Virus record (IMG/VR): IMGVR_UViG_3300032116_000284
Coordinates: 1 to 53,017 of that record
Direction: 5' to 3' (one strand)
Length of the DNA: 53,017 nt
Origin: a virus
Positions 22,199-51,165 of the stretch are shown in pieces; within the stretch, counting starts at the first letter, position 1, and each line of letters opens with the position of its first letter. The notes beneath the pieces were generated by a model. It was not told the origin of the DNA and made no database searches. It saw only the letters and a list, made by a program, of their open reading frames with translations. The position numbers and the translations under genes are program-made.

Positions 22199-22227
22199 GT
22201 CGCACCGTGTTCTTTCGGTTGTGAACC

Positions 22228-22234
22228 ATAACTA
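22228..22234 (-). promoter_or_regulatory. Candidate late promoter element TAGTTAT
   Basis: Exact TAGTTAT on the minus strand, 29 nt before the ATG of the membrane metallopeptidase gene, at a gap similar to that at the tape measure gene. Confidence 0.45.
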
Positions 22235-22313
22235 GCCGGGGAAAATGGAACAAGGGCAGCCCCCGGTTATGGGAACTACCCTTGTGTTTCGAACCTAGGC
22301 TGTTGAGGGAGGA

Positions 22314-25600: not shown

Positions 25601-26131
25601 ATGAACAACATGCAAATCAAGTTCAAGAAGACACATCCGAACGCCATTCTGCCCAAGCAGGGGAAACTGGGAGACGCAGGGTTCGATCTATTCTGCGTTG
25701 AGGATTTTCGGCTTCGGCCAGGAGAGAGACAGTTGGTTTCTACCGGACTTCAACTGGCAGACATGCCAGCGGGGATCTTCGGCAGTCACTTTTCATTCTT
25801 CCTCCAGATTGAAGGTAGGTCGGGGCTAGCGGCTAAGGGTGTCATACCACTGGGAGGCATCATCGACGCAACATATCGAGGAGAGATAAAGGTTATTCTC
25901 CAGAACTTGAACCAACAACGGCATGGCAGTATTTTTTCGGAAACAGTAGACCGGGATCTTTCAGAGAAAACCGTTTCGTTCAAAGCAGGGGACAGAATAG
26001 CTCAGCTGTTGATTCGAGTGATTGTAACCAGCGATGGCAGAGACCTTGCTGGTGACGTTGAGATGCTCGAAGCTGACGATGTGACAGAAACAGCGAGGGG
26101 AGATGCTGGATTCGGGAGCACGGGGCAATGA
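25601..26131 (+). CDS. dut: dUTPase (deoxyuridine triphosphatase)
   Basis: 176 residues with all five trimeric dUTPase motifs: DAGFDLF (1), GRSGLA (2), GGIIDATYRGEIKV (3), GDRIAQLLI (4) and RGDAGFGSTG (5). It converts dUTP to dUMP and pyrophosphate, keeping uracil out of phage DNA and feeding dTMP synthesis. A serine/phenylalanine-rich insert (GIFGSHFSFFLQIE) lies before motif 2, and an insert with HGSIFSETVDRD before motif 4. AGGAG lies 10 nt before the chosen ATG. Its stop overlaps the next start by 4 nt, so it opens a coupled operon with the next two genes. Confidence 0.93.
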   Translation: MNNMQIKFKKTHPNAILPKQGKLGDAGFDLFCVEDFRLRPGERQLVSTGLQLADMPAGIFGSHFSFFLQIEGRSGLAAKGVIPLGGIIDATYRGEIKVILQNLNQQRHGSIFSETVDRDLSEKTVSFKAGDRIAQLLIRVIVTSDGRDLAGDVEMLEADDVTETARGDAGFGSTGQ

Positions 26132-26625
26132 AACTCGCAGAGTTTCTCAAACTAAAAGCTGGCACTCTGGTGTTAGGGTTCGATACAATTGCGGAGGGGT
26201 CGGGCGTTGCAACTCTTTCTCTTACTGGCTGGGAGTCCTTTGACTCCTCGGAGGAATCAGAGCAGCCGTCATCTAGCCACAGAAGAGATGGTGTTGGAAC
26301 CATATGGTATCCGACACGAACCATCCCAGATGGCACAGTTGTCCGAAACACAGAAAACCTAGACTGGGACAAGACAAAAGCTGGATGGAGGAAACTTGGA
26401 ATACCTGACCCGTGGACCATGTGGCCAGGACAGCTTGTCACGTTTCCGGTTGGAGAAACTGTAGGGCTGATAACAGGAAGGGTTGTTGTTGCCTCTCCTG
26501 ACAAGACAGAAACTCCATATGTTGCGGCTAGACTCTATATTGAATTGCTAGCTTCGGATGGCGAACTTGGTTTCGTGATGCTTCAGACAGATGACATTCT
26601 GAAACGAAAGCTATTCTTGGTATGA
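26128..26625 (+). CDS. KPG-box-type beta-rich protein, unknown
   Basis: 165 residues, coupled on both sides by 4-nt overlaps (dUTPase upstream, exonuclease downstream). The N-terminus EFLKLKAGTLVLGFDT resembles the E-x-x-K-P-G-x-[LV]-V opening of the small proteins at 44.4-46.7 kb. A second such element appears as WMTWPGQLVTFPVGETVGLI, roughly (WTMWPGQLVTFPVG). An acidic, Ser-rich loop (SSEESEQPSSSHRRD) lies in the middle. It appears to be all beta. It may be a longer, two-module member of that family; this is inference from short motifs. No enzyme signature is seen. Confidence 0.65.
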   Translation: MKLAEFLKLKAGTLVLGFDTIAEGSGVATLSLTGWESFDSSEESEQPSSSHRRDGVGTIWYPTRTIPDGTVVRNTENLDWDKTKAGWRKLGIPDPWTMWPGQLVTFPVGETVGLITGRVVVASPDKTETPYVAARLYIELLASDGELGFVMLQTDDILKRKLFLV

Positions 26626-33827: not shown

Positions 33828-33834
33828 ATAACTA
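33828..33834 (-). promoter_or_regulatory. Candidate late promoter element TAGTTAT
   Basis: Exact TAGTTAT on the minus strand, 4 nt before the ATG of the 98-residue gene; the TAG is the chaperonin stop codon. Confidence 0.4.
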
Positions 33835-35235: not shown

Positions 35236-35254
35236 GAGGTACCTCGGATTCTCG

Positions 35255-35265
35255 CATATTTATGT
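35255..35265. promoter_or_regulatory. AT-rich element between divergent chaperonin and coiled-coil genes
   Basis: CATATTTATG reads as TATTTAT on the plus strand (17 nt before the coiled-coil gene, with GAGGTGG between) and as CATAAATATG on the minus strand, towards the chaperonin. It may be a late promoter for one or both genes. Confidence 0.4.
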
Positions 35266-35280
35266 AAGCGAGGTGGTCAA

Positions 35281-35817
35281 ATGCCCAACACGAGAGAGCA
35301 GGAGCTCCTAGAGCTGATAGTACAAAAGTTCAACGATAGTCGGGCGTTGAACGGTGGTTTCGACAAGCTGTGTCTTATGATCGAGCACGTTCAAGCTGAA
35401 CAAGACAAGAACAGTGGGAAGCTGGACAAGGTATCAGACGCTCTCTACGACCCGGACCATGGCTTATTCGCAAGGGTAAAGAAGTTGGAACAGAAGATTG
35501 ATAGCAACCTGGGCGACCTCGATCAGATCGTGAAGGGCATTCCAACTGTTGAGACGAAAGTCACAGCACTAGTGACCAAGGTCGAAAGCCTTGAAAAGAA
35601 GGCAGAGACTCAGACCACGCTCGATAGCGATACAAGGAAGAAGATTCAAGACCTTGAGAAGTTCCATGCGCACATGGAGAAAATTGGTGGTGTTGGCCTC
35701 AACGAGTTTTCTGACATTGTGGCGCTGAAACAAAGGATGTCGAATATTTATTGGGCACTGGCGCTTGCTATCATGATGTTTGTTGGCAAGCTGTTGTTCG
35801 AACTAGCCAAAAGATAG
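35281..35817 (+). CDS. Coiled-coil protein with C-terminal membrane anchor
   Basis: 178 residues. Residues about 40-135 form long heptad-rich coiled coils (KLEQKIDSNLGDLDQIVKG, VTALVTKVESLEKKAETQ). The C-terminus is a single membrane helix (YWALALAIMMFVGKLLFEL) ending AKR, so it is tail-anchored. No spanin lipobox or holin pattern is evident. GAGGTGG lies just before the ATG, after a TATTTAT element. Function unknown; possibilities include lysis regulation or anchoring an assembly at the membrane. Confidence 0.68.
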   Translation: MPNTREQELLELIVQKFNDSRALNGGFDKLCLMIEHVQAEQDKNSGKLDKVSDALYDPDHGLFARVKKLEQKIDSNLGDLDQIVKGIPTVETKVTALVTKVESLEKKAETQTTLDSDTRKKIQDLEKFHAHMEKIGGVGLNEFSDIVALKQRMSNIYWALALAIMMFVGKLLFELAKR

Positions 35818-35899
35818 CTTCTAGGCCCTGTGGAACGTACAACAGCCTATACAACAGTGTCGTGTAGCACAACAGTACAATAACACAGGAGAAACACAA

Positions 35900-36154
35900 A
35901 TGAGTGACGATACAAGACAACATCTGGCGGACGTGTGGGAATCAGTGAAGGCTGCTGTGGCCGAAGTTGAGGAAGACGTGTCGAAGAGCGTGGCTAAGGG
36001 CACGCTCGCTGCCGGAACAAGAACACGCACAGGCACACACCGACTGCGCAAGCTTCTTGCAGAAGTGGTGAAGGCTTCGAGGGCACACGATGCTGCAGTG
36101 AAGGCTGAGCGCAAGGCTGTTCAAGAGTCTGTGCCTGTCGCTGTTGAAGTTTGA
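35900..36154 (+). CDS. Small basic histone H1/Hc1-like protein
   Basis: 84 residues. After an acidic helical N-terminus comes a basic stretch, AAGTRTRTGTHRLRKLLAEV, then AVKAERKAVQES. The 'AGTR.R..(L)..L..(hydrophobic)..R' pattern resembles small bacterial and phage histone H1-like proteins as I remember them. It may bind phage or host DNA. CACAGGAGAAACAC gives a strong ribosome site, almost the same leader as that of nrdJ. It precedes a strong terminator. Codons are richer in G/C than in its neighbours. Confidence 0.5.
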   Translation: MSDDTRQHLADVWESVKAAVAEVEEDVSKSVAKGTLAAGTRTRTGTHRLRKLLAEVVKASRAHDAAVKAERKAVQESVPVAVEV

Positions 36155-36214
36155 ACAGTAGCTTGTTCCGAGTAGTTTCGGAACACAGTGAAGATTCATA
36201 GGTGAAACCTAGAG

Positions 36215-36246
36215 AAAGGGCAACCAACCGGTTGCCCTTTTGTTTT
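36215..36246 (+). terminator. Intrinsic terminator after the histone-like gene
   Basis: An 8-bp perfect stem GGGCAACC / GGTTGCCC with a 4-nt loop, extended by AAA/TTT pairs and followed by TTTTGTTTT. Strong rho-independent form. Confidence 0.92.
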
Positions 36247-36269
36247 GGACTAGTTAGGACTGGAGACTC

Positions 36270-37628
36270 ATGACAAAAAACACATACATTCTCGACACCA
36301 ACGTCCTCCTGTCAGATAGCAACTCCCTGTTTGGGTTCAAGGAACACAACGTCGTTCTGCCGTTGATTGTTCTGGAAGAGCTCGACAGACACAAGGACAG
36401 GCAAGATGAAGTGGGTCGCAACGCAAGAGATTTCGTTAGGAAGCTCAGCGAGCTCACGAAGGAGAACCAGGACTTCAAGAAAGGCATTTCCATTGGAAAC
36501 AACATGGGAACGCTTCGCATCCTCGCCATTTCCGACCTTATGCAAGAGGCGGAAGCTATCGAACAGCTACCATTCGAACTTCAGGACAAGAAGACCGGAG
36601 ACAACACGATTGCTCAGTTCTGTGTGAACTACATTCACAAGCACAAGGACGAGACGGTGGTGTTGATTACAAGAGACACCATCTTGAGGTTGAAGGCCAA
36701 GGCGCTTGGCATTGTGGTTGAAGACTATAAGAAGTTCAACGTTGTCACGAGTGTGAGTGCGTTGTATTCTGGCGTGGAGCTGCTTGAAGACGTTGACGGC
36801 GTTGACGTGAATGACTTCTACGAGTGCGGTGATGCAGGGTATGTGTTGCCAAAGGAAATTGAAGAGAAGCTCTATCCTAACCAGTTTGTCATTATCAAGT
36901 GCGGGCAGCAGAGCGGCGTTGCTAGGTTCATCGCTCCAGGGAAACCACTCAGGAAGATGGCTAAGAACCCAGGCAAGCTGTCCGCAAGAAACAAGGAACA
37001 GGAATTTGCAAGAGAACTTCTGTTCGACAACGATGTGAAACTGGTAACGCTCGCAGGGCAAGCCGGTACGGGCAAGACCTTGCTTTCTATCGATGCCGGT
37101 ATCGAACAGGTGTTGAATGGCAAGCGTTATCGTTCGCTTGTCATTTGTCGTCCAGTGATGCCTGTTGGCAGAGACATTGGGTTTCTCCCTGGAGACTTGA
37201 ACGAGAAGCTTGAGCCATGGCTAGCTCCCATCAAGGACAACTTGAGGTTTCTGTTGAGTGAGTTTGGCAAGAAGAGCAAGTTCGATGAGCAGGTTCTTCA
37301 GAGCTACTTCGAAGAAGGCATTATCGAAGTTCAAGCCATGACCTTCATCAGAGGCAGAAGCATTGCCAATGCTTTCGTAATCATTGATGAAGCTCAGAAC
37401 ACCAACCTTCACGAGATGAAGACCATCTTGACAAGAGTTGGAGAGAACACGAAGATTGTGCTCACTGGAGACATTGAGCAGATTGACAACACTTACGTTG
37501 ACTCGGTTAGCAACGGTCTATCCATTGCTATCGAGAGATTCAAGTCGCAGCCTATCGCTGGGCATGTGACGTTCAAGAAGGGCGAGCGTTCTCAGTTGGC
37601 TACAATTGCTGCTGAGATTCTTCGCTGA
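36270..37628 (+). CDS. phoH: PIN-PhoH fusion (PhoH2-type RNA helicase/nuclease)
   Basis: 452 residues in two domains. Residues 1-150 are a PIN nuclease: YILDTNVLL with the first Asp, LEELDRHKD, TGDNTIAQFC and VLITRDTILRLKA supplying acidic residues. From about residue 245 comes the PhoH ATPase: LAGQAGTGKTLLS (Walker A), AFVIIDEAQNTNLHEMKTIL (Walker B) and LTGDIEQIDNTYVD. Such PhoH2 proteins unwind and cleave RNA; in phages PhoH is common and of unclear role. A GGAG ribosome site lies 4 nt before the ATG, directly after the terminator, so a promoter in the terminator's 3' side may exist. Confidence 0.9.
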   Translation: MTKNTYILDTNVLLSDSNSLFGFKEHNVVLPLIVLEELDRHKDRQDEVGRNARDFVRKLSELTKENQDFKKGISIGNNMGTLRILAISDLMQEAEAIEQLPFELQDKKTGDNTIAQFCVNYIHKHKDETVVLITRDTILRLKAKALGIVVEDYKKFNVVTSVSALYSGVELLEDVDGVDVNDFYECGDAGYVLPKEIEEKLYPNQFVIIKCGQQSGVARFIAPGKPLRKMAKNPGKLSARNKEQEFARELLFDNDVKLVTLAGQAGTGKTLLSIDAGIEQVLNGKRYRSLVICRPVMPVGRDIGFLPGDLNEKLEPWLAPIKDNLRFLLSEFGKKSKFDEQVLQSYFEEGIIEVQAMTFIRGRSIANAFVIIDEAQNTNLHEMKTILTRVGENTKIVLTGDIEQIDNTYVDSVSNGLSIAIERFKSQPIAGHVTFKKGERSQLATIAAEILR

Positions 37629-40448: not shown

Positions 40449-43118
40449 ATGACGACCACTTCCCTTCTATACAGCTCCAAACAGCTCTTCAGCTCGAAGA
40501 AGCTCAACAAGAAAAAGAAGAGTGAGAAGCAGGCTGGTGACGAGCCTAGGGCCAAACACAACAAGCAGTTGGTGTTCAGTCATCATGAGTGGAGAGACTC
40601 GACGGTTGAAATAATCTCAAAGGTCATCCTTGAGAACAGGCTGCCTGTCATCGAGTTGTTCAGTGTAGGGACGGCTGTTGATGATGGCGAGAGGTATTGC
40701 AGCTGTGGATACTTGAACTGTCCAAAGCCAGGGAAGCACCCATCAAACTGGCGAAACTGGACCAGGGCCTTGATTCCTAGTGCTGAGTATCTTGCAAAGA
40801 TGCTTCAGAAGAAGAACCGAAACTATGCCATCGTTGCTGGCAGGCGCTCACCGAAGAACGGTAAGTGTCTTATCGTTGTTGACGTTGACCAGTTCGACCA
40901 TCCATACCTCAACTCGCTGAAGGACAGCAACACGTTCTACTACAGAACGGGTGGAGGAGGTTATCACTTCTGGTTCTGGACAACAGAATATCTCTCCAAA
41001 AACTCCATATCACTTCTGGCTAAGTCTCTTGACACAAGAGGAGCAAACGGCTATGCCATTATTCCTCCAAGCGAACACTTGAAGGGTTCTTACCACGAAC
41101 TAGTCGGGAACACCATCCAGGACTTACCAGAATGGCTTGCAGTCGAGTTGCGTGAGAAGATCAAGGCCAAGGCTGCTGAGAGACGTGAAGCCGCTGGTAA
41201 GGCTAATAGACACACTACAGCGCTCGTGCAAAACTTGATTGACTCACTCGGGCAAGAACCTACAGAGACGAAGAAGACTTTCAGTCAAGGGTTCTGGGCT
41301 ACAGCTACTGTTGTGCAAATAAGAAGAGCGTTGGCACTGCCGGGAGAGCTTGTTCCTATCGGCACAAGGAACAACGTCATGTTCAAGTTGTTGTCGGCCA
41401 AGAGGGTTCTTGGTGCTTCCGAGACAGAGTTGTGCGCTGAAGCACAAAAGGTGTTGAGCAGGTTTGAGAACCCGATTGCATTCTCCGAAGAGATTCCTGG
41501 CATAGTTTCCAGCGTGTTGAAGTACAAGTCTTACGACACGTCCTACGACAAGGTAAACGTCAACTACATCTTGTGGCTTATGAAGAACACGAAGTTCTCG
41601 TTCACAAGGGAGACTCCCGAAGAGAGACTCACACGGCTTGAGGAAGCCGACAGGGCATTCTTCGCTGGCCTTGAGGTTGTAGAGAACCCAGGCGAGGATG
41701 AAGAACCAGGAGTAAGCTTGACTCAGATATCCGACATGAGGGCCGAATACCTTCAACGAGAACTGGGATGCAAGGGGTCCGTCTATAAGCCTCAACATCT
41801 AGCACGGAAACTTGTGGCCTTGGGATATAAGCGGTTTAGGACCGCTAAGAGAAATTATTGGAACATTCGTTTTACCCAGTGTATACTCAAGCCAGTGGAA
41901 CATTACCAGAGAGGGTCTTCCTCTGCCTGCCCTATGCCACCACAAGAGCGTATAAAGGACACAGTGAAGGAACATAAACAGAGGATGGCTGTCATTGTTC
42001 AAGAGAGACAGAAGCCCGAGATAGAGTTGGGCCGTGTGTACACCTCAGATGACACAGGGAAAGAGTATGCTCTATATGAACCCAGGCTTGTTGTTCCTAC
42101 CAGTGATGGTAAGCAGTACGTGTCGAACTTCCAGTTGCTTGAAGATGCAACCGGCACAAGGGACTACATCTGGATAGCACCCAAGCAGCTGTTTCTCGTT
42201 CTGGAAGCACAGAAGAACACGATGCTTGGAATGGGCGAGGACATGCTCTGGCTGCGTGTTATCGCTGGCTCAAAAGAGAACGTTTCCCCGATATGGAAAA
42301 ACGTTGACGTTGCTCCCGAAGGAACTGTTGCTTGGATTCTTGCAGACCCGGCACACCTTGTTCCTGTTGGGCCACCGACACAGAAGCGTCAACAGAGCAG
42401 GAAAGAACACAAGACCATGAACATGACGAACAAAGCTGAAGGGAACAAGAGCGAGGTTGTTGCTCTGCATTTCTCGGACTTGCATTCAAGGTTGCACTTG
42501 TTGAACGAGCACCTTCAGTCATTGAAGGACATGAAGTTCGACTGTTGGATCAACACGGGAGACTTCTTCCCAAACCTGCCACATGGAGGTTTGGTTGAGA
42601 ACGAGCGGAGATACCAAGAGGGTTGGTTCCTGCAAGTCAAGGAATACTTGTTCGAGCTGCTTGACGGCAAGCCTGTGATAACGGTTGACGGGAACCACGA
42701 CTTCATTTCGCTGGCTGACATGCTGGTCAAGCATGGGTATCCAGGAGAGGTCTACAAGATAGAACAAGGGAAGACGTTGGAGTTCATGGGTTTGAAGTTC
42801 AAGGGATTCCAGCACATTCCATGGTGCGGTGGATTCTGGAACCATGAGGTTGATGTTTCCTCCATGGAAAAGATCGTAAGACAGACGTTCGATGGTGCGG
42901 AGGATGTAGATGTGCTGCTTACGCACACTCCTCCACAGGACATCCTAGCTTGTCAGTGGGGCGTTCCAGCGCTGAGAGACAAGCTGCTGTTCACGACCCA
43001 TGGGTTTAGGTACCACATGTTTGGTCATGTGCATGAAAGCCCAGGACAACACGAACAAAACTACATCAAGTTCTTCAACTCGGCTGGTATTGTTCAGCGT
43101 GTTGTGATGACGAAGTAA
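40449..43118 (+). CDS. Primase-polymerase (AEP) fused to a calcineurin-like metallophosphoesterase
   Basis: 889 residues. The N-terminal half is a PrimPol: CSCGYLNCPKPGKHP metal patch, LIVVDVDQ (Asp145, Asp147), GGGGYHFWF (His173) and LDTRGANGYAIIPPSEH (Asp195). A PriCT-like helical region follows (VPIGTRNNVMFKLL, FSEEIPGIVSSVLKY). From about residue 669 comes a metallophosphoesterase: HFSDLHS, NTGDFF, DGNHDF, LLTHTPP and FGHVHES, all metal ligands kept. PrimPol makes primers for the gp41-like helicase. The phosphoesterase could act on DNA ends or nucleotides. Met657 (42417) has AGGAAAG about 10 nt before it, so the second domain might also be made alone. Confidence 0.85.
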   Translation: MTTTSLLYSSKQLFSSKKLNKKKKSEKQAGDEPRAKHNKQLVFSHHEWRDSTVEIISKVILENRLPVIELFSVGTAVDDGERYCSCGYLNCPKPGKHPSNWRNWTRALIPSAEYLAKMLQKKNRNYAIVAGRRSPKNGKCLIVVDVDQFDHPYLNSLKDSNTFYYRTGGGGYHFWFWTTEYLSKNSISLLAKSLDTRGANGYAIIPPSEHLKGSYHELVGNTIQDLPEWLAVELREKIKAKAAERREAAGKANRHTTALVQNLIDSLGQEPTETKKTFSQGFWATATVVQIRRALALPGELVPIGTRNNVMFKLLSAKRVLGASETELCAEAQKVLSRFENPIAFSEEIPGIVSSVLKYKSYDTSYDKVNVNYILWLMKNTKFSFTRETPEERLTRLEEADRAFFAGLEVVENPGEDEEPGVSLTQISDMRAEYLQRELGCKGSVYKPQHLARKLVALGYKRFRTAKRNYWNIRFTQCILKPVEHYQRGSSSACPMPPQERIKDTVKEHKQRMAVIVQERQKPEIELGRVYTSDDTGKEYALYEPRLVVPTSDGKQYVSNFQLLEDATGTRDYIWIAPKQLFLVLEAQKNTMLGMGEDMLWLRVIAGSKENVSPIWKNVDVAPEGTVAWILADPAHLVPVGPPTQKRQQSRKEHKTMNMTNKAEGNKSEVVALHFSDLHSRLHLLNEHLQSLKDMKFDCWINTGDFFPNLPHGGLVENERRYQEGWFLQVKEYLFELLDGKPVITVDGNHDFISLADMLVKHGYPGEVYKIEQGKTLEFMGLKFKGFQHIPWCGGFWNHEVDVSSMEKIVRQTFDGAEDVDVLLTHTPPQDILACQWGVPALRDKLLFTTHGFRYHMFGHVHESPGQHEQNYIKFFNSAGIVQRVVMTK

Positions 43119-43186: not shown

Positions 43187-44296
43187 ATGAAGACGACGAC
43201 GGACTCCAGGCTGTACAAGTTGGTGGCATCCCTCGGTGGACTTTCTAGGTCTCATAACGAAAAAAGGAAGTGTTCTCGCTGCGGATTGGGCTTGGAAGAT
43301 CCGGCCAGCTTCGAACGTGGCCAAGGGCCGGTGTGTGCCAAGAAGGACACGCACTTGTTCGCCAAGACGATTCCGGCCAACTTCCCCATGGCGACGATGA
43401 ACGCTATGAGCGTGAACGTGGAGCTTCTTGCCGAGACGGTTCGTCCTGTGTGGCGCTCGGTGATTGAGCTGTTGACGTTCAAGTCTTCGAGGGCTCTTGC
43501 TGCTGCGAACCTTGACACGCTGGTGTTTCACGCTTCGGGTGAAGACTGCCGGTTGATTGTCAAGGTGATCGACTGGATGTTGTCTTTCGAGACTCGTGGA
43601 GACCAGAAGAACCTGCTGATTCAGACGGTCAAGAATCTTGGATATCCTGGCCTTGCTGGTGTTCTTGCTGGCCAGTCTTCGACGGGCGAGGCTGTTCTTG
43701 CCTTCGATGACGTGAAGGGAGTTCTCACGCTCAAGGGTTCCAGCAACAAGGCTGGTTTCTTGGCGATGCGCAAGATTCCGGGGATTGTTGTTCCCCGGTA
43801 CCGGTCGCAGGGAGTCTACGAGGCTCCTGCTTCCCAGCATGAGAAGTTCATCGCTGCGGTGATGGAGTTCTGGCCTTGCTTCTCTGGTGAAGTGGAGGCT
43901 ATCACGGCGAAGGCGAATGCGTGGTGTGCTGCTCACCCTGTCAAGGTTGCTGCACAGGCGAAGGCTGCGCAGGTTGACAACCGTCCCAAGGCCAAGGTCG
44001 TGACCCAAGCCAACAGCATCGTGGTGTCCTTCGCTTGGGACAAGAGCTTCACTCCGAGGGTTGTGGAGGATATCAAGACGATCAACTGGAAGGAACGCTC
44101 GTACAACCCCAACGATCGTACTTGGAAGGTGAACCTCGCTCACAAGGACAAGGTTCTTGGCATCCTGAAGGCTCACTACGCCGTCGAAGAGGTTTCCGGC
44201 GACAGCACCACCGCCACTCCTGCTGCTGCCTCCTATAAGCCGTATAGGGGCTCCTACGGACGCAGTGGCCGGAACTGCAACAACCGGGCTTACTGA
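43187..44296 (+). CDS. DUF6011-type zinc-knuckle protein with HARP-like C-terminal module
   Basis: 369 residues. Near the N-terminus KCSRCGLGLEDPASFERGQG then PVCAKK gives C-x2-C...G-x-GP-x-C, the DUF6011 pattern. The middle has no recognised domain. Around residues 285-335, SIVVSFAWDKSFTPRVVEDI followed by W..RSYNPNDRTWKVNL resembles the HARP-like segment that often precedes SNF2 helicases, here without a helicase. The tail is Tyr/Arg/Gly-rich (YKPYRGSYGRSGRNCNNRAY), as in nucleic-acid-binding proteins. Codons are strongly G/C-ended. There is no ribosome site: the promoter puts the start of the mRNA at the ATG. High early expression is likely; function unknown. Confidence 0.78.
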   Translation: MKTTTDSRLYKLVASLGGLSRSHNEKRKCSRCGLGLEDPASFERGQGPVCAKKDTHLFAKTIPANFPMATMNAMSVNVELLAETVRPVWRSVIELLTFKSSRALAAANLDTLVFHASGEDCRLIVKVIDWMLSFETRGDQKNLLIQTVKNLGYPGLAGVLAGQSSTGEAVLAFDDVKGVLTLKGSSNKAGFLAMRKIPGIVVPRYRSQGVYEAPASQHEKFIAAVMEFWPCFSGEVEAITAKANAWCAAHPVKVAAQAKAAQVDNRPKAKVVTQANSIVVSFAWDKSFTPRVVEDIKTINWKERSYNPNDRTWKVNLAHKDKVLGILKAHYAVEEVSGDSTTATPAAASYKPYRGSYGRSGRNCNNRAY

Positions 44297-44367: not shown

Positions 44368-44850
44368 ATGGCAAAGAGAAAACACACAAAACAAGTAATC
44401 ACCGAGGTAAACGAGCACACTGCGGGGATGTCCCTGGCGAGGGGCATCAAGGTTGGAGACTTGTGCTACCTTGACGGAAGCATGGTTGGAATATTCAGCA
44501 GTCCTGGGATTGCACCGATAACCGAGATAGGTTTCTTGGGTGAAGATGAGCCCTTCCAGCTAGCTGACTACAAGTCCGACCCTGACAACAGCGACTACTG
44601 CTACGTTGGAGTTATTCCTTCTGACTTGGTTAGCTGTCCTTCGGGATGGATGAGGGTGCCTACAGAGTTCTTCGACTTCTACACCGTGAAGAAAGTAAAA
44701 GTCAAGAAACCGAAGGCCACCAAGCAGAACACCAGAGTCCAACAAGAAACAACAGCCCCGGAACATACCAACACAACCGCCCTGTACAAGAAGGATAACC
44801 TCGAACAACTGTTCTCTGATTATCTGACAAGAGACAGCGCAGATACTTAG
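44368..44850 (+). CDS. KPG-box cluster protein 1, unknown
   Basis: 160 residues, starting MAKRKHTKQVITEV. I chose this ATG over an upstream in-frame TTG. The core has GIKVGDLCYLDGSMVGIFSS, a VG-for-PG version of the motif that marks this cluster, then YCYVGVIPSDL and GWMRVPTEFFDFY, suggesting a small beta barrel. The C-terminus is Lys-rich then polar. There is no clear ribosome site. It opens a run of seven short plus-strand genes with related openings. Confidence 0.62.
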   Translation: MAKRKHTKQVITEVNEHTAGMSLARGIKVGDLCYLDGSMVGIFSSPGIAPITEIGFLGEDEPFQLADYKSDPDNSDYCYVGVIPSDLVSCPSGWMRVPTEFFDFYTVKKVKVKKPKATKQNTRVQQETTAPEHTNTTALYKKDNLEQLFSDYLTRDSADT

Positions 44851-44862
44851 CGAACAGCCGTC

Positions 44863-45201
44863 ATGAGCCAGCAGAGTTCCACCAGCAACAACTATCTCCA
44901 CATTACTGTAGTAGAGAATCCGCTCATAAAAGAGATGAACCGGTTCGAACCTGGGAAGCTGTTCAGGAACACTGGTCTGGATCGGGCGATGTTCAGGAAC
45001 TTCAGGGGTGATGAATTCCCGGCGCAGGACGTTGGCACTCTTGACAACATGAAGATTGGCCAGAACTACTTGATTCTAGAACGGGTGAGGGAAGGCTACT
45101 ACACCTGCTACCTCAAGGTTCTCACCGAGAATGGTATCGTTGGCTGGCTGTATGCTGAACTGCGTGAGTTCGGTTCGAAACTAGTCCTTGTGGATCCATA
45201 A
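44863..45201 (+). CDS. KPG-box cluster protein 2, unknown
   Basis: 112 residues. The opening helix is followed by NRFEPGKLFRNTG (an EPG version of the motif) and, later, KIGQNYLILERVREGYYTCY and KVLTENGIVGWLYAEL. 'V-L-x-x-[DN]-G-x-x-G-x-[LM]' is shared with clusters 3 and 7. The end, GSKLVLVDP, resembles the FEPV(N/D) endings of those members. Probably an SH3-like beta barrel. It starts 12 nt after the previous gene without an obvious ribosome site. Confidence 0.62.
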   Translation: MSQQSSTSNNYLHITVVENPLIKEMNRFEPGKLFRNTGLDRAMFRNFRGDEFPAQDVGTLDNMKIGQNYLILERVREGYYTCYLKVLTENGIVGWLYAELREFGSKLVLVDP

Positions 45202-45206
45202 AGAAC

Positions 45207-45503
45207 ATGAACAACAGGAAGTTTCTAGAGCGGACGAAACCAGGAGACCTGTGGGTTGCGGTGGGGTACTACATGGAGCACATGGCCGTTCTGAGAACAG
45301 TGACGGAGGAGTCCAGTCCACTGCCAAGCCACTGCAGCCACTGCATTGTGAACGGCAGCGTTTACATGTTTCTCGGATACGACGAAGAGCGACATTTTGG
45401 CAGTTTCGTTGTTCATGTTCTCATGAGTGACGGAATGAAGGCCACTATGTACGTGTCGACAGCCGGTGTGCTGCTTGCAAGCAGATTCGAGCCCGTCAAT
45501 TAA
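45207..45503 (+). CDS. KPG-box cluster protein 3, unknown
   Basis: 98 residues: KFLERTKPGDLWVAVGYY at the N-terminus, VYMFLGYDEERHFGSFVV in the middle, VLMSDGMKATMYVS and a terminal RFEPVN. Its closest relative is cluster protein 7, which has the same order: KPG, strand, [ER]ER-x-x-x-G, a strand, DG, then FEPVD. A small Cys/His patch (HCSHC) is specific to this member. It starts 5 nt after the preceding stop. Confidence 0.65.
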   Translation: MNNRKFLERTKPGDLWVAVGYYMEHMAVLRTVTEESSPLPSHCSHCIVNGSVYMFLGYDEERHFGSFVVHVLMSDGMKATMYVSTAGVLLASRFEPVN

Positions 45504-45507
45504 ACTC

Positions 45508-45521
45508 CTGGTAATTACCAG
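45508..45521 (+). promoter_or_regulatory. Perfect 14-bp palindrome
   Basis: CTGGTAATTACCAG, 12 nt before the -35 box of the promoter at 45534. Compare the CTGGTATTAT element before the DUF6011 promoter. Candidate repressor site. Confidence 0.5.
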
Positions 45522-45533
45522 CCAGAATATTCG

Positions 45534-45562
45534 TTGAAGAAACGGCTTGATTCTGGTATATT
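45534..45562 (+). promoter_or_regulatory. Sigma70-like promoter within the KPG-box cluster, leaderless
   Basis: TTGAAG, 17-nt spacer ending TGG, TATATT, then 6 nt and ATG. AATATTC(G) directly precedes the -35 box, as at 43152. Confidence 0.75.
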
Positions 45563-45568
45563 GATCAT

Positions 45569-45856
45569 ATGCGGGACAGTGCAGATATCTTCGGAACACT
45601 ACGGCATCAGTCGTACAAGCCGTTTCTGGAGTCCATCAAGCCCGGAACGATTCTGTTCCGGAAAGACACCTACACGGCGAAAGCACACTGCTCCTGGAAA
45701 AGCGCTGTTGTTCTGGAGTTTGACTACAGCCTCGACTTCCACACAGCAGGAATCCGGACAAAGGTTCTTTTGCCTGAGTTCGAACGAACTTGCTGTTTTA
45801 GTTTGGGTCTCGACAACTTCGTTGAATGGATCACGACAACTCCTCCCAAGGGCTAG
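45569..45856 (+). CDS. KPG-box cluster protein 4, unknown
   Basis: 95 residues: FLESIKPGTILFRKDTY, then KSAVVLEFDYSLDF, CCFSLGLDNFVEWITTTPP. It aligns along its length with cluster protein 6 (RLEAITPGMLLYRRFTS, FVLEFDYNELF, RCSFEEVF, DAWTTDP), so these two are clear paralogs sharing VLEFDY. The ATG lies 6 nt after a -10 box, so the mRNA should be leaderless. No signal peptide, membrane helix or enzyme motif. Confidence 0.68.
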   Translation: MRDSADIFGTLRHQSYKPFLESIKPGTILFRKDTYTAKAHCSWKSAVVLEFDYSLDFHTAGIRTKVLLPEFERTCCFSLGLDNFVEWITTTPPKG

Positions 45857-45862
45857 ACGCAC

Positions 45863-46168
45863 ATGATCATGCCAAGGATGACCAATGAAGAGTTTGCAAA
45901 AGAACTCAAACCGGGGCAACTGGTTCGTGTTCGGTCGGTACCGGGCTGGGGGCGTAGGCAGCTGTATTTCCCGGACAGCGGTACGTTTGTGGAGTGTGAA
46001 AAAACTGAGGACGGTGAGTTGCTCACGTTCTTGTACGGTGAAGCGAAATCTGCGTTTCGGAACACGCTCTCGCTGTACTTTCTAAACAAGGCGGGCATGG
46101 TCGTGTGTGTGCTTGACGTGTTCAAACAGACAAACGATCTGGTACATCAACTCCAACCTGTCGAGTAA
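45863..46168 (+). CDS. KPG-box cluster protein 5, unknown
   Basis: 101 residues: EEFAKELKPGQLVRVRSVPG, then RRQLYFPDSGTFVE, LLTFLYGEAKSAF, VVCVLDVF and a terminal LQPVE, comparable with FEPVN/FEPVD of members 3 and 7. AAGGG lies about 10 nt before the first ATG, within the end of the previous gene. An alternative start two codons later is possible. Function unknown. Confidence 0.65.
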   Translation: MIMPRMTNEEFAKELKPGQLVRVRSVPGWGRRQLYFPDSGTFVECEKTEDGELLTFLYGEAKSAFRNTLSLYFLNKAGMVVCVLDVFKQTNDLVHQLQPVE

Positions 46169-46173
46169 AGGCC

Positions 46174-46443
46174 ATGAAAACCAAACACAAAACTCGACTG
46201 ACTGCGCACACGTTACAACGTCTAGAAGCTATCACTCCTGGAATGCTGCTGTACAGAAGATTTACGAGCGAGTTTTACAAAACGTTGTTCGTTCTAGAGT
46301 TCGACTATAACGAACTTTTTGTGAAGTTCGTTGCTTGGGATATTGAGCGGGGCGTGCGGTGTAGTTTCGAAGAAGTGTTCGTAACGGCTTTCCTCGACGC
46401 CTGGACAACGGACCCGAGCAAGGTTTGCTCACATGAAGAATGA
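46174..46443 (+). CDS. KPG-box cluster protein 6, unknown
   Basis: 89 residues: LQRLEAITPGMLLYRRFTSE, KTLFVLEFDYNELFVKF, CSFEEVFVTAFLDAWTTDPS. Paralog of cluster protein 4 (same VLEFDY, same C-terminal W-x-TTxP). TPG replaces KPG. AAAGG lies only 2 nt before the ATG, a tight spacing. The 3' end overlaps the next gene by 11 nt. Confidence 0.66.
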   Translation: MKTKHKTRLTAHTLQRLEAITPGMLLYRRFTSEFYKTLFVLEFDYNELFVKFVAWDIERGVRCSFEEVFVTAFLDAWTTDPSKVCSHEE

Positions 46444-46711
46444 ACTGATCTTTCAGAACTACAAACCAGGAACCATGGTTCGGGCGAAGTTCAGCCATGC
46501 ATCACTGTTTTTTGTTGTTGGGAGCAAGCCATATCGATATCTCGACGTAGCCAAGAATGATATTGTCATGGTTCTGAGCGTGAGAAAAGAACGAACCAAC
46601 CTCGGATTTCTCTGGGCTCTGACTTTTCTTTTGCTCGATGGCAATATTGGAGAGCTGCGAATGCGTGGTGCTTCAGACTCGTTTTCGTATTACTTCGAAC
46701 CGGTGGACTGA
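46433..46711 (+). CDS. KPG-box cluster protein 7, unknown
   Basis: 92 residues: IFQNYKPGTMVRAKFSHASL, FFVVGSKPYRYLDV, VLSVRKERTNLGFLWALTFL, LDGNIGELRM and terminal YYFEPVD. Paralog of cluster protein 3. It overlaps the end of member 6, with AAGG about 9 nt before the ATG. Last gene of the cluster; a convergent hairpin follows. Confidence 0.66.
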   Translation: MKNELIFQNYKPGTMVRAKFSHASLFFVVGSKPYRYLDVAKNDIVMVLSVRKERTNLGFLWALTFLLLDGNIGELRMRGASDSFSYYFEPVD

Positions 46712-46756: not shown

Positions 46757-47020
46757 CTAGTTACCAGTGGACCCTAGAGGCTTGTTGGTCTCTGGGGTCT
46801 CGGACGTTCTGAGGTCTTCGATTTCCTTGAGCATCTTATCGATGCTGCGGTCGAAGTATTCCTTGTAGTCTTCGGACATAACGACCTTGCCATCTTCGCC
46901 TACGGTTACTCTGAGCATTCTCATGTTGTCAACAACATGGGTGCCTGTGAGGATAGCCAGCTGTAGAAGCTTGGCGATTTGTCCGATGAGTTCGTCACTT
47001 AGTTGATGTTGTGTTGACAT
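46757..47020 (-). CDS. Small conserved phage protein, unknown
   Basis: 87 residues: LSDELIGQIAKLLQLAILTG THVVDNMRML is the core (split here for length), an all-helical start followed by a charged C-terminal helix (YFDRSIDKMLKEIEDL). The phrase LTGT-x-V-V-D-x-M-R-M I recall from phage small proteins of unknown function. It overlaps the end of dnaJ by 26 nt, so the two are co-translated. No function known. Confidence 0.65.
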   Translation of the reverse strand: MSTQHQLSDELIGQIAKLLQLAILTGTHVVDNMRMLRVTVGEDGKVVMSEDYKEYFDRSIDKMLKEIEDLRTSETPETNKPLGSTGN

Positions 47021-48014
47021 TTGGGTTTTCCTTGTTGTACAAGCTAGCGAGTTGTTCGATTATTGTCTTGTGTTCTTCGCTGATAGGTTCTGAAGGCAGG
47101 GCTACAACGGGAACAACGTACATGTCTCCCCGTTCCTTGCTTGCTACTGAAGCGTATACTCCCTTACCTTTCACACGAAGCATCTGCCCGTTGGACAGCT
47201 TGGGAAAGTTGACGCTTACGGTAGAGCCATCAACGGTAGGAATGGAGTAGGCACCACCTAGCACAGCTATGTGATATGGGACGTACGTCTCCATAATAAC
47301 CCTGCCATCGGTTCCCAGTTGAACGTTGTCTGGAACTTGTACATGTACTCTTGTGAGCACTTCATTGTTTTCATCGATGGTCGTGTGCAAGGTTGTGTCG
47401 AAGATAACTCCTCTTGGGATGTTCACCCGAACTTCTTTTTGCTCTATCGTTACACCTTGGCCGTTGCAAGCCTCGCACTTTGGATATGTGAACCCTGCCA
47501 CACACTCACCACAGGTTTTGTCCTTGTCTGTTGGGTGCTTGCCGGAGCCGTTGCAGGATGTGCATTGCCGCCTCTGTGAGCCTTGTCTGTGGCAGGTGGA
47601 ACAGTTGATGCGTGTTGGTACGGTGACAACCCTTTCCTGCCCCTGCAACGTCTCCTGGAGAGAAAGACCCATATCCACAACGTAGCGGTTCTTGGGGGCT
47701 TGGCGAGGGCGATGGGCGTCCACCTTGCCGTTGAACCCGAAGAAGCTGTGGAATATGTCTTCCGGTGATACGTGCATGTTGTTGCCGAACGGGAAAGGGA
47801 AACCACTGGACTGTGGAGCGTCATAAGCTTTACGCTTGTCTTCGTTTCCTAGGACTTCGTAAGCCTCAGTAACTTCCTTGAACTTATGTTCAGCTTCCTT
47901 GTTGCCTTGATTCCTGTCTGGATGGTAGTCGAAGGCGAGCTTGCGGTAAGCCTTCTTGATGTCATCCTGTGAGGCAGTCTTGTCAACGCCCAAAGTCGAG
48001 TAGTGGTCTTTCAT
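46995..48014 (-). CDS. dnaJ: DnaJ/Hsp40 co-chaperone
   Basis: 339 residues. The J domain has DHYSTLGVDKTASQDDIKKA and the HPD motif in FDYHPDRNQG (about residues 30-35). The Gly/Phe linker is short (SSGFPFPFGNN). Four zinc-finger repeats follow: CSTCHRQG, CTSCNGSG, CGECVAGF and CEACNGQG, then the substrate-binding beta domains (VRVNIPRGVIFDTTL). It would recruit host DnaK; no phage DnaK is in the window. It is shorter than E. coli DnaJ (376), with the C-terminus trimmed. Its start abuts the stop of the preceding gene (TAATG). Confidence 0.92.
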   Translation of the reverse strand: MKDHYSTLGVDKTASQDDIKKAYRKLAFDYHPDRNQGNKEAEHKFKEVTEAYEVLGNEDKRKAYDAPQSSGFPFPFGNNMHVSPEDIFHSFFGFNGKVDAHRPRQAPKNRYVVDMGLSLQETLQGQERVVTVPTRINCSTCHRQGSQRRQCTSCNGSGKHPTDKDKTCGECVAGFTYPKCEACNGQGVTIEQKEVRVNIPRGVIFDTTLHTTIDENNEVLTRVHVQVPDNVQLGTDGRVIMETYVPYHIAVLGGAYSIPTVDGSTVSVNFPKLSNGQMLRVKGKGVYASVASKERGDMYVVPVVALPSEPISEEHKTIIEQLASLYNKENPNVNTTSTK

Positions 48015-48244
48015 TATTGAGGCTTCTTGTAGAGGTTCTCTTGTGCGTAGTCAGCTAGAGCCTTGTGGAACTGTGCTAGTTCCTCAAGGGTGAATCCAAC
48101 GTCGTCTGTTATCCCTGGCTGCTTGTCAAGGATGAGCTCTGGCCTGTTGAATCGTCCTTGCTCTCTGGTCCAGTATTCAACGTGTCTTACCTTGACAACC
48201 CAAGCTCCTCTTGTGCCAACAACCTTTTCGTGTAGAACTCTCAT
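48014..48244 (-). CDS. 76-residue protein upstream of dnaJ, unknown
   Basis: Compact protein: MRVLHEKVVGTRGAWVVKVR, a beta start with conserved-looking aromatic residues, then GFTLEELAQFHKALADYAQE, helical. It overlaps the DHFR-fusion stop by 4 nt and dnaJ's ATG by 1 nt, so it is embedded in a coupled three-gene unit. No family is recognised; there is no signal peptide. The coupling on both sides makes it a solid gene call. Confidence 0.65.
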   Translation of the reverse strand: MRVLHEKVVGTRGAWVVKVRHVEYWTREQGRFNRPELILDKQPGITDDVGFTLEELAQFHKALADYAQENLYKKPQ

Positions 48245-49278
48245 TTGTTTCCCTTGTTCATCTTGGCTCTCCTGAGTCCCAGGAGACCATAGCCTGTGAT
48301 GTCGCTGTAAGCATCCTCAAGCCCCTCTTGAGTGCCATTGTCATTGGTGCTGATTCTCATGAGCTTGTCGAATATTCTGACAACACAGAGCATGTCACCA
48401 AACTGTTCTGGCTTTACTCCGTTCGGGTAGAGAACACGAAGGAACTGGTCAGCCTTGTCAAAAGCAGAACCGTACGCCTTGTTCTTGCTGGATACAAGCT
48501 TGCCAATGTCTCCAGCTAGCTCTTCGAAGGTTGGGACATCTGTTGATCGAGCCCCAATGGTCCACGACGCTGGCACGAAACGCTCTTGTGCGCAAGGGCC
48601 TTCAGGAAACGAGGGAATGCCATCGGTCACGTCAGGCACAAACTCGGGCACTTTTATTTGTGCCTCTGCAACTTTGTCCTTCGGTTCCCAGGTTTCGATT
48701 GTGAAAGTGCCTTCCATGTCGGCGACGGCCTTGGTTATCACTCTGTCGGTTGTGGCAAGAATCTGGAACTCAAACGGCAAGAAAGTGAAACGCTTATCCT
48801 TCTTGGATATAGGATCCAGCTCTGTGGCGTTGAGCAACCGAAACACGTCATGGTTACATAGTCCCAAAGATATCCGTGTGAAGTAGACCTTGTTGTTCAC
48901 AAGGTGAACGGCACTTTGATACAGCTTGGCTCCACCGGCAATGAACACTTCTCCATATGGATGTTCAGCAGCATACTCCAGAGCTGCCTCAACCGATCGA
49001 AACACGAACTGTTCGGTTTCGATTCCTGGGGTGGGACGCCAGATGCGCTCTTCTGGACAGGCTGACACTGTCAGCACTCTCCTGCCCGGAAGAGATGGGA
49101 GCTTCATGTAGGTTTTACGGCCAACAATCAGTGTGTGACCTGTTGTAACATCTTTGAAGTGCGCAAGGTCATCTGCACAGTGCCATGGTAGCCCTGTCTT
49201 CGACTGGTCGTCCCCAATAAGAAGGCCGTGTGGTGTTGGGCACGCAGCCAGAATCATGTTTACTTTTTGCTCAGTCAT
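48241..49278 (-). CDS. folA: Dihydrofolate reductase fused to a nucleotide-associated helical domain
   Basis: 345 residues. The N-terminal ~190 residues are DHFR: MILAACPTPHGLLIGDD, LPWHCADDLAHFKDVTTGHT, LIVGRKTYMKLPSLPGRRVL, and GEVFIAGGAKLYQSAV. A Pro-rich linker follows. From about residue 251 an all-helical domain has LVSSKNKAYGSAFDKADQFL, VVRIFDKLMRISTN and LEDAYSDITGYGLLGL. This is the K..YG..(F) ... R-x-x-DK-x-x-R ... D-x-x-GY layout of DUF1599-like/MazG-like nucleotide proteins. DHFR supplies tetrahydrofolate for dTMP synthesis; the second part may act on nucleotides. AGGAG is present upstream. Confidence 0.82.
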   Translation of the reverse strand: MTEQKVNMILAACPTPHGLLIGDDQSKTGLPWHCADDLAHFKDVTTGHTLIVGRKTYMKLPSLPGRRVLTVSACPEERIWRPTPGIETEQFVFRSVEAALEYAAEHPYGEVFIAGGAKLYQSAVHLVNNKVYFTRISLGLCNHDVFRLLNATELDPISKKDKRFTFLPFEFQILATTDRVITKAVADMEGTFTIETWEPKDKVAEAQIKVPEFVPDVTDGIPSFPEGPCAQERFVPASWTIGARSTDVPTFEELAGDIGKLVSSKNKAYGSAFDKADQFLRVLYPNGVKPEQFGDMLCVVRIFDKLMRISTNDNGTQEGLEDAYSDITGYGLLGLRRAKMNKGNK

Positions 49279-49303
49279 CCGTGTATGTTCTCCTGTGAGG
49301 GAG

Positions 49304-49332
49304 ATAATGACACGGGATTATCTGGTTGTCAA
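49304..49332 (-). promoter_or_regulatory. Promoter for the DHFR-dnaJ operon
   Basis: Minus-strand TTGACA, 17-nt spacer, CATTAT, then CACAGGAG and the DHFR ATG. The TTGACA overlaps the clpP stop codon. Confidence 0.72.
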
Positions 49333-49958
49333 CCGAATGTCATCTGCACGTCGAAGGTGACTTCAATCTTCGGGAGCTTGATATGGTTGACAAGGCCGTG
49401 CTTCTTGGCTTCCTCGGCATCCAGAAACAAATCAGCATGACCGTTCTCATGAACGAGCTTCGAGAAGTAGTCGGCGGGCTGACCAGCGCCAATAGCCATC
49501 ATCTTGAAGATAATCTTGTTGAGACGGTCGACTTCCTTGGCTTCCGCCTTGATTTCTTCAACCTTGCCCATGGCAGCAGAAGCTACGTCATGGATCATGA
49601 CCGTGCCTGTGGGTGCCATGTACCGATGTCCTTCAGCACCACATGCCAACAGAACCGCCCCACATGACATAGCCTTGCCCATGCAGATGGTTGCAACAGT
49701 CATCTTGCTTGCCTTGATGACATCAACCATCTTGAGAAGAGAATATACCTCACCGCCATACGAGTCGATGATGACAGGGACAATCTCCTGTCCCGTGTTC
49801 TGTGCGTTGATCATTCCCTCAAGAAAGTCCTTGGCGCTATCCTCGGTGAACTTGTTCACGTAGATGATGTGTGGAGACTTGTACTTGACAGCCAGATCCC
49901 CACTGTCCGGAATATCCACCTTCGTTAGTCCTGGGTTTCTCACTTTTACTTCGAACAT
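49329..49958 (-). CDS. clpP: ClpP-like serine protease
   Basis: 209 residues, close to the 207 of E. coli ClpP. The catalytic Ser98 lies in MGKAMSCGAVLLACG, His123 in VMIHDVAS, and Asp176 in HADLFLDAEEAKKHG. The oxyanion strand SYGGEVYS replaces the usual SPGG. The head region DIPDSGDLAV and handle helix KEVDRLNKIIFKMM are as in ClpP. It should form tetradecameric chambers with a host ATPase such as ClpX, or process phage prohead proteins, as ClpP-fold proteases do in some phages. It opens an operon with its own sigma70-like promoter. AGGAG lies 11 nt before the ATG. Confidence 0.9.
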   Translation of the reverse strand: MFEVKVRNPGLTKVDIPDSGDLAVKYKSPHIIYVNKFTEDSAKDFLEGMINAQNTGQEIVPVIIDSYGGEVYSLLKMVDVIKASKMTVATICMGKAMSCGAVLLACGAEGHRYMAPTGTVMIHDVASAAMGKVEEIKAEAKEVDRLNKIIFKMMAIGAGQPADYFSKLVHENGHADLFLDAEEAKKHGLVNHIKLPKIEVTFDVQMTFG

Positions 49959-50046: not shown

Positions 50047-50439
50047 TTATTTCGGTATCATACCTGTGTTCACCACTTGATAGATAAGCTCCACTTCGTG
50101 TTCTAGGACGGTATACTCTCTTCGAACACCTACAGTATCCGTTTCCGGAATAACACCGACTAGCTCAACGTACTTCCAGTCCATTCCTGGCTGCTGGTAC
50201 ACAGCCTTCACAAGCCCTAGAACATATCCACGGCGAAGGCTATATTCGTCATATCTGGGTGTGGGCGTGCCAGTTGACAACCGAGCTTGACATATGTCAG
50301 GTCTAAGCTTCAGCGTTACGAAGTTTCCTGGCTTGAGGCAAGAAAAACCAGAACCACCCACCGTTTCTATAGCCGCTTTCTTTACGTTCTTGTTGCTGGA
50401 CAACTTGTTTCGAAACCAACTCCAGATAGATTCACTCAT
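50047..50439 (-). CDS. KPG-box-type protein, unknown
   Basis: 130 residues. A helical, basic start (IWSWFRNKLSSNKNVKKAA) is followed by FSCLKPGNFVTLKLR, the same opening as the 44.4-46.7 kb cluster. Beta strands come next (RRGYVLGLVKAVYQQPGMDW, YVELVGVIPETDTVGV) and a last strand (EVELIYQVVNTG). It is the only clear family member on the minus strand and far from the cluster, so the family is dispersed. CCTAGAG lies before the ATG. It is divergent from the DUF192 gene with 10 nt between starts. Confidence 0.62.
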   Translation of the reverse strand: MSESIWSWFRNKLSSNKNVKKAAIETVGGSGFSCLKPGNFVTLKLRPDICQARLSTGTPTPRYDEYSLRRGYVLGLVKAVYQQPGMDWKYVELVGVIPETDTVGVRREYTVLEHEVELIYQVVNTGMIPK

Positions 50440-51097: not shown

Positions 51098-51129
51098 GAA
51101 ACGACCGGCAGCTAGCCAACAAGAACTGC

Positions 51130-51136
51130 TAGTTAT
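51130..51136 (+). promoter_or_regulatory. Candidate late promoter element TAGTTAT
   Basis: Exact TAGTTAT on the plus strand, 29 nt before the GTG of the 259-residue gene, with CGGAGA between. It is back to back with the minus-strand copy 32 nt away. Confidence 0.5.
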
Positions 51137-51165
51137 TGGCACTACTTCAACACGGAGACTTCCAA

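Follow-up and report, generated by a model that had tools for sequence, protein, structure and literature searches.

Seven consecutive short open reading frames (ORFs; m1 to m7) lie on the + strand of an IMG/VR virus record (IMGVR_UViG_3300032116_000284; the whole stretch of 53,017 bases analysed is called the window below), and six of them, m2 to m7, are judged from their sequences to form a real but very diverged family. The overall reading proposed here, which we hold with moderate confidence, is that m2 to m7 are paralogous single-domain SH3-like barrels, tandem-duplicated and fast-diverging, each of which would be a protein-binding module with a different target. The window looks to come from a large tailed phage and encodes SSB, a family-A-like DNA polymerase, DnaB helicase, an exonuclease, PhoH, ribonucleotide reductase (RNR), dihydrofolate reductase (DHFR), ClpP and DnaJ. 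The run spans 44368-46711 and encodes proteins of 89-160 residues, as had been stated correctly in an earlier, sequence-only reading of this DNA, and it is tightly packed, with intergenic gaps of 12, 5, 65, 6, 5 and -11 nt from m1 to m7.

All seven proteins had been read as opening with a KPG box and as belonging to one family expanded by duplication, and this is supported for m2 to m7. A P-G-x-[LIMF]-hydrophobic box is present in m2 (44863..45201, 112 residues), m3 (45207..45503, 98 residues), m4 (45569..45856, 95 residues), m5 (45863..46168, 101 residues), m6 (46174..46443, 89 residues) and m7 (46433..46711, 92 residues), where it reads EPG, KPG, KPG, KPG, TPG and KPG, respectively, while m1 (44368..44850, 160 residues), the first ORF of the run, has KVG instead. 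In the relaxed form [PAVI]G-x-[LIMF]-hydrophobic, the box is found in 7/7 cluster ORFs versus two of the 15 other small ORFs of the window (Fisher p 2e-4). BLAST links only m4 and m6 (E 2e-5, similarity over 78 residues), the alignment of which had been noticed earlier and is borne out by a shuffle z-score of 7.0, and the kinship proposed for m3 and m7 likewise stands (z 5.1), with m5/m7 at 3.8 and m3/m5 at 3.4. The related ends proposed for m2 and m5 are at noise level (z 0.7); m2, the clearest member, scores 3.7 against r1, a 165-residue ORF located elsewhere (26128..26625, +). When each member in turn was left out of the family profile and ranked among all the untrained window ORFs, m3, m4 and m7 came first, m5 second, m6 seventh and m2 tenth. 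There are two subgroups, {m3,m5,m7} and {m4,m6}, whose genes alternate along the run in a pattern consistent with the duplication of gene pairs, suggesting that m2 to m7 probably arose by tandem duplication, plausibly of such pairs. The seventh protein drops out, since m1 is unlike m2 to m7 throughout (z at most 1.2, profile rank about 100-220, 6.5% in profile-profile comparison) and its membership is without support.

Further evidence came from relatives, which were found by searching with aligned PhoH proteins; this led to a clade of mostly large contigs, the key ones being G001 (241 kb), G017 (260 kb), G006 (119 kb), G019 and G021. In G001, the PhoH-PrimPol-DUF6011-[cluster]-DnaJ-DHFR-ClpP block is collinear with the window, and ten small ORFs, most of them with a PG-x-L-like box, lie between DUF6011 and DnaJ. 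A profile trained on 40 G017 proteins only and run on 236 window ORFs ranked m2 first (E 4.7e-6), m7 second (6e-5), r1 third (0.04), m3 fifth and m5 sixth; the hypergeometric chance of finding m2, m7, m3 and m5 in the top 6/236 is 2e-6. In the case of m2, m7, r1 and m5, it is the C-terminal strands that are matched, so that the result is independent of the box used to choose the set. A profile of the G001 block placed m6 first, m7 second, m2 fourth, m4 fifth and m5 seventh among the same 236 ORFs (chance 2e-8), ranks to which the box may contribute because both sets had been chosen by it. In profile-profile comparison with G017, {m2,m3,m5,m7} reached a probability of 91% (E 1e-6), when unrelated controls gave at most 1.6%, and m4/m6 reached 4%.

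Two additional relatives had been proposed, at 26128 and 50047, of which the first is a probable long family member and the second is unproven. Besides its z-score and its rank with the G017 profile, r1 reaches 51% in profile-profile comparison, its match to the family profile is to its C-terminal part, and its orthologues in G017 and G019 contain LKPGTFIKG. Its site between genes for a dUTPase and a 5'-3' exonuclease is kept in the window, L003, G001, G017 and G019. By contrast, r2 (50047..50439, -, 130 residues) is a conserved phage gene with a KPG box and orthologues in G001, G006, G010, G017 and G019, for which no link to the family beyond the box was found (z at most 2.3 against anything, profile-profile probability 0.5%).

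An idea of the fold came from AlphaFold2 (AF2) models of m2 and m4, two of the nine proteins. The m2 model (pLDDT 86.6) has strands at residues 33-36, 42-44, 59-62, 68-76, 81-88, 93-99 and 107-109 and a short helix at 100-106, which is the SH3 topology (a, RT loop, b, c, d, 3-10 turn, e), and m4 (pLDDT 70.3) was modelled with the same order of elements. The family consensus runs G-x-L-Y/V, a variable stretch, GD-x-hVhLE, hKVL-x-x-x-G-x-x-G and E-x-V, and by our reading of the m2 model the variable stretch would fall at the RT loop. Foldseek with m2 retrieved SH3b domains of NlpC/P60 enzymes, SH3, FeoA and PetP (probability 0.90-1.00, E at least 0.04), whereas neighbours of m4 were mostly Tudor, KOW and SH3 barrels with lower probability. 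Single sequences gave weak matches to SH3_2 (four members, best 0.012) and SH3_3 (two members, best 0.013), both scored among 32 family members, to TIGR04211 (two members, best 0.002) and to Pex13 SH3; the curated cut-offs of Pfam SH3_3 and SH3_2 were not reached, and no window protein matched these up to E 1. The SH3-like barrel suggested by the sequence-only reading is thus accepted for m2 to m7 at the level of predicted fold, and membership in a curated family is rejected.

Sequence divergence in the run appears to have been rapid. The genes that flank the run share 35-61% identity with their counterparts in G001, yet BLAST cannot recognize any cluster ORF in the block found at the same site in G001. 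Similarly, the r1 proteins of the window and L003 share 25% identity, whereas the values are 42% and 62% for the two neighbouring genes and 76% for the next one. Both comparisons support the rapid diversification proposed earlier. A tblastn search of m5 and m6 across 50,697 phage records returned noise or nothing, and single-protein scans with m7, PrimPol and DnaJ returned no kin. An IMG/VR hit in a search with m4 (L002) was discarded as a chance seed match, as it consists of an exact YKPFLESI inside a different protein. In a scan with RNR, 79/80 loci have only the RNR gene in common, and L003 is the one true relative. Although G006, G017, G019 and G021 are closer to the window than G001 in their DUF6011 protein (55-56% versus 45% identity), no such cluster is present at their DUF6011-DnaJ site, and the block was therefore either ancestral and then lost, or the site is one of repeated insertion, two scenarios between which the data do not decide.

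Members of the family are most abundant in G017. Using a family alignment in which some training sequences came from the window, G001 and G017, there were five matches in the window, 17 in G001, 39 in G017, a single match in G010 as in G023, and no match in 18 further records, several of these larger than 100 kb. When a profile was iterated over all genomes without supervision, it continued to expand, likely by drift, and its counts were not used. In G017 the members form arrays at 49-54 and 107-131 kb rather than at the DUF6011-DnaJ site. At 14-61 kb in G001 (L086-L089), too, there are extended series of small genes interspersed with larger enzyme genes, and many of these small genes have a PG-x-L box and score as SH3-like. 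Within the G017 arrays, about 20 tandem paralogues (49.8-50.8, 110.1-111.4, 115.5-118.7, 121.4-122.7 and 130.2-130.9 kb; L173, L174, L170) have, at the RT-loop position, a hypervariable in-frame segment with 62-81% GC in a nearly constant AT-rich framework. In 15 of these genes, the framework DNA (33-35% GC) is 82% identical upstream and 79% downstream, while the segment, which is 42-84 nt long, has 70% GC and occupies the RT-loop position, shows a mean identity of 55% versus 49% for shuffled sequences. A separate set of C-ending, GC-rich segments is carried by a second subfamily of four genes (121.4-122.7 kb), and third codon positions are mostly G in one of the two subfamilies, mostly C in the other. 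Such composition is rare in this genome, where 0.6% of 60-nt windows have at least 65% GC, and most of the 24 GC-rich patches across its 260 kb are at the RT-loop position. GC-rich segments of this kind were not seen in the window's own members. A diversity-generating retroelement was considered as the source of the G017 segments and rejected, as no second (template) copy of the variable segments was found in the G017 contig and no reverse transcriptase (RVT_1) in G000, G001, G006 or G017. Searches for close kin of the array in IMG/VR, bacterial and archaeal genomes returned only G017 itself.

Taken together, a scenario can be proposed in which m2 to m7 arose in a large-phage lineage through successive tandem duplications, probably with a gene pair among the units copied, and through fast divergence; they would be part of a larger paralogue family growing into arrays in relatives. 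The kept core would consist of a PG-x-L strand, a G-x-x-hVhLE strand, an hKVLxxxGxxG hairpin and a terminal E/F-x-V strand, and the part varying most, which separates the first strand from the VLE strand, would correspond to the SH3 RT loop. Each copy might be a small cytoplasmic module with a partner protein of its own in the host (or phage), whose activity it would alter, the array acting as a repertoire of binders. Five of m2 to m7 have a pI of 5.8-7.7 and m7 is basic (9.3), all ten members of the G001 block are acidic (pI 4.1-6.1), and inspection by eye revealed no N-terminal hydrophobic segment or export signal in m1 to m7. Proteins that are small, mostly acidic, standalone, without evident export signal and varied at a ligand-binding loop would be suited to being protein-binding modulators with different targets. 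We infer from this that the ligand would be a protein rather than nucleic acid or cell wall. The target probably belongs to the host, expression may be early and the role may be in takeover or counter-defence. A protein-binding role seems likeliest, counter-defence being one of several possible uses; an anti-defence role is possible, and no match at trusted score to an anti-defence family was found in Pfam, PHROGs and NCBIfam, which are general libraries rather than dedicated anti-defence ones. A bolder proposal, which we consider rather unlikely, is that these phages maintain a stock of SH3-fold binders that can be enlarged, new copies being supplied by tandem duplication and the ligand-binding RT loop being rewritten by strong selection or by a targeted process, which in G017 would proceed through untemplated-looking, in-frame, GC-rich segments set in an AT-rich framework. 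This would amount to an antibody-like diversification of small phage effectors toward changing host targets or defences, the window block being a diverged example.

Several findings weigh against the main interpretation. None of the proteins scores at a trusted level against a known family (Pfam, PHROGs, NCBIfam) and Foldseek E-values never fall below 0.008, which leaves topology and many weak matches as the basis of the fold call. Both AF2 alignments included the family itself, and the topology shared by m4 is thus not independent; the expectation of a common fold outside known families was followed for these two proteins, both predicted to be SH3-like barrels. The block is missing at its site in four closer relatives, where it is thus dispensable, and profile-profile comparison gives no link between the G001 block and G017.

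Other explanations have to be considered as well. That these proteins are KOW-like regulators of host expression, binding nucleic acid, RNA polymerase or the ribosome much like the predicted KOW of T4 MotB, is unlikely in our view. Foldseek neighbours do include KOW-bearing ribosomal proteins, Tudor and CarD, and MotB is an early DNA-binding phage protein with an N-terminus predicted to be SH3-like (PMC7827196), but the pI values above, for five of m2 to m7 and for the ten G001 members, are unusual for DNA or RNA binders and there is no Pfam KOW match. A function as SH3b-type cell-wall binding or lysis accessory proteins would be consistent with the SH3b domains of NlpC/P60 enzymes and endolysins found among the best PDB and BFVD neighbours of m2, and with the standalone SH3 genes that adjoin the lysis cassette in Drexlerviridae (PMC13164509). 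It is nevertheless improbable, as no lysis gene was recognized beside the run (the neighbours encode DUF6011, DnaJ, DHFR and ClpP), a hydrophobic N-terminus is not apparent, and 39 copies per genome are hard to reconcile with lysis. Large phages package many small paralogous proteins and a gene resembling phage structural proteins lies near the run (38407), which would agree with virion or ejected accessory proteins; the absence of the block from its site in close relatives, the location of the arrays elsewhere in another and the flanking nucleotide-metabolism and chaperone genes make this equally doubtful.

The arrays could also be mostly non-adaptive, formed by duplication-prone genes drifting with little function, as might be suspected from their extreme divergence and their absence at the site in close relatives. 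We give this a low probability too, as open frames and barrel-forming residues are kept and the G017 frameworks remain 79-82% identical while one segment varies in frame. Finally, most pairs are without BLAST similarity and PG-x-L is a common turn-strand motif, so that the run might be a chance collection of unrelated small ORFs with a common PG turn; profiles trained on other genomes without window sequences place its members at the top, which makes this very improbable.

The run sits between the gene for a DUF6011-containing protein (43187..44296, +), which is kept across the relatives compared, and a convergent DnaJ-DHFR-ClpP block (46757..49958, -) composed of a small conserved gene, DnaJ, a small conserved gene, a DHFR fusion and ClpP. 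The leaderless promoter that had been read before m4 exists as a sequence (45534..45562, +; TTGAAG-17-TATATT with TG, ending 6 nt before the ATG of m4), yet it is not above chance, with two such sites found versus 1.6 expected. Elsewhere, CTAGTTATNG occurs twice in the window, at 22226-22235 (-) and 51129-51138 (+), when 0.07 occurrences are expected, and TAGTTAT variants precede several other window genes, possibly as a phage promoter element. The adenosylcobalamin-dependent RNR (29271-32138) has an interruption of about 280 residues (119-398) with intein splicing signatures, which is lacking in L003 and G001, L004 likewise having the long version. Prim-Pol is fused to a calcineurin-like phosphoesterase (40449-43118), the two being separate genes 100 kb apart in G001. 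The fusion of DHFR to a conserved C-terminal domain (48241-49278) is also found in G001, and corresponds to two split genes in G006, G017, G019 and G021. A GroEL-like gene, a small gene and a PINc-PhoH gene (33832-37628 in the window; L099-L152) co-occur in dozens of IMG/VR contigs of up to 370 kb, an association useful for recognizing a group of large phages that has been little described.

The SH3-like barrel as such is common, and what looks new is not the fold but an array-forming, divergent standalone family with, in one phage, a hypervariable RT position. Bacterial SH3 domains (SH3_3 PF08239, SH3_2 PF07653 and SH3b of NlpC/P60 enzymes and endolysins) share the predicted fold, the strand order and the patterns L-x-x-G-D-x-x-V-L-E and W/Y-K-V-x-x-x-x-G-x-x-G-W/Y, but scores in the run are sub-threshold and its genes are single-domain, tandem and unfused to enzymes. 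Among phage proteins, Nip from Bacillus phage phi3T, an SpbK counter-defence protein that forms a complex with the defence protein and its phage trigger (PMC11984713), also has predicted SH3-like domains; it differs in having 279 residues, with two such domains and an HU-like domain, and no sequence link was shown. The Drexlerviridae protein (DUF7244) is similarly small and standalone, but is encoded by a single gene beside the lysis cassette and was proposed to be a lysis helper (PMC13164509). T4 MotB, with its SH3-like/KOW prediction (PMC7827196), and P39415 (the motB-dexA 13.8-kDa protein, a Foldseek neighbour of m2) are small as well, although MotB binds DNA, has an OB-fold domain and forms no array. 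By analogy, Nip, MotB and the Drexlerviridae SH3 are precedents, none of which shows what the window genes do. Multicopy families of giant viruses and Borgs (the genomic accordion) display a comparable lineage-specific multiplication, interpreted as host adaptation, in different proteins and other classes of viruses or elements (PMC12660748).

A full-text literature search, with coverage that leaves out most subscription journals and bioRxiv, returned neither a described phage family of many standalone SH3-like paralogues in arrays nor one in which the RT-loop position is hypervariable. The arrays of the relatives are in this respect more interesting than the window block itself, and they offer a testable picture of how small genes are created in large phages. 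If the copies bind different host proteins, these arrays would indicate which host proteins it is most important for large phages to control, and would serve both as a ready catalogue of phage effectors and as a display library of SH3 domains made by nature.

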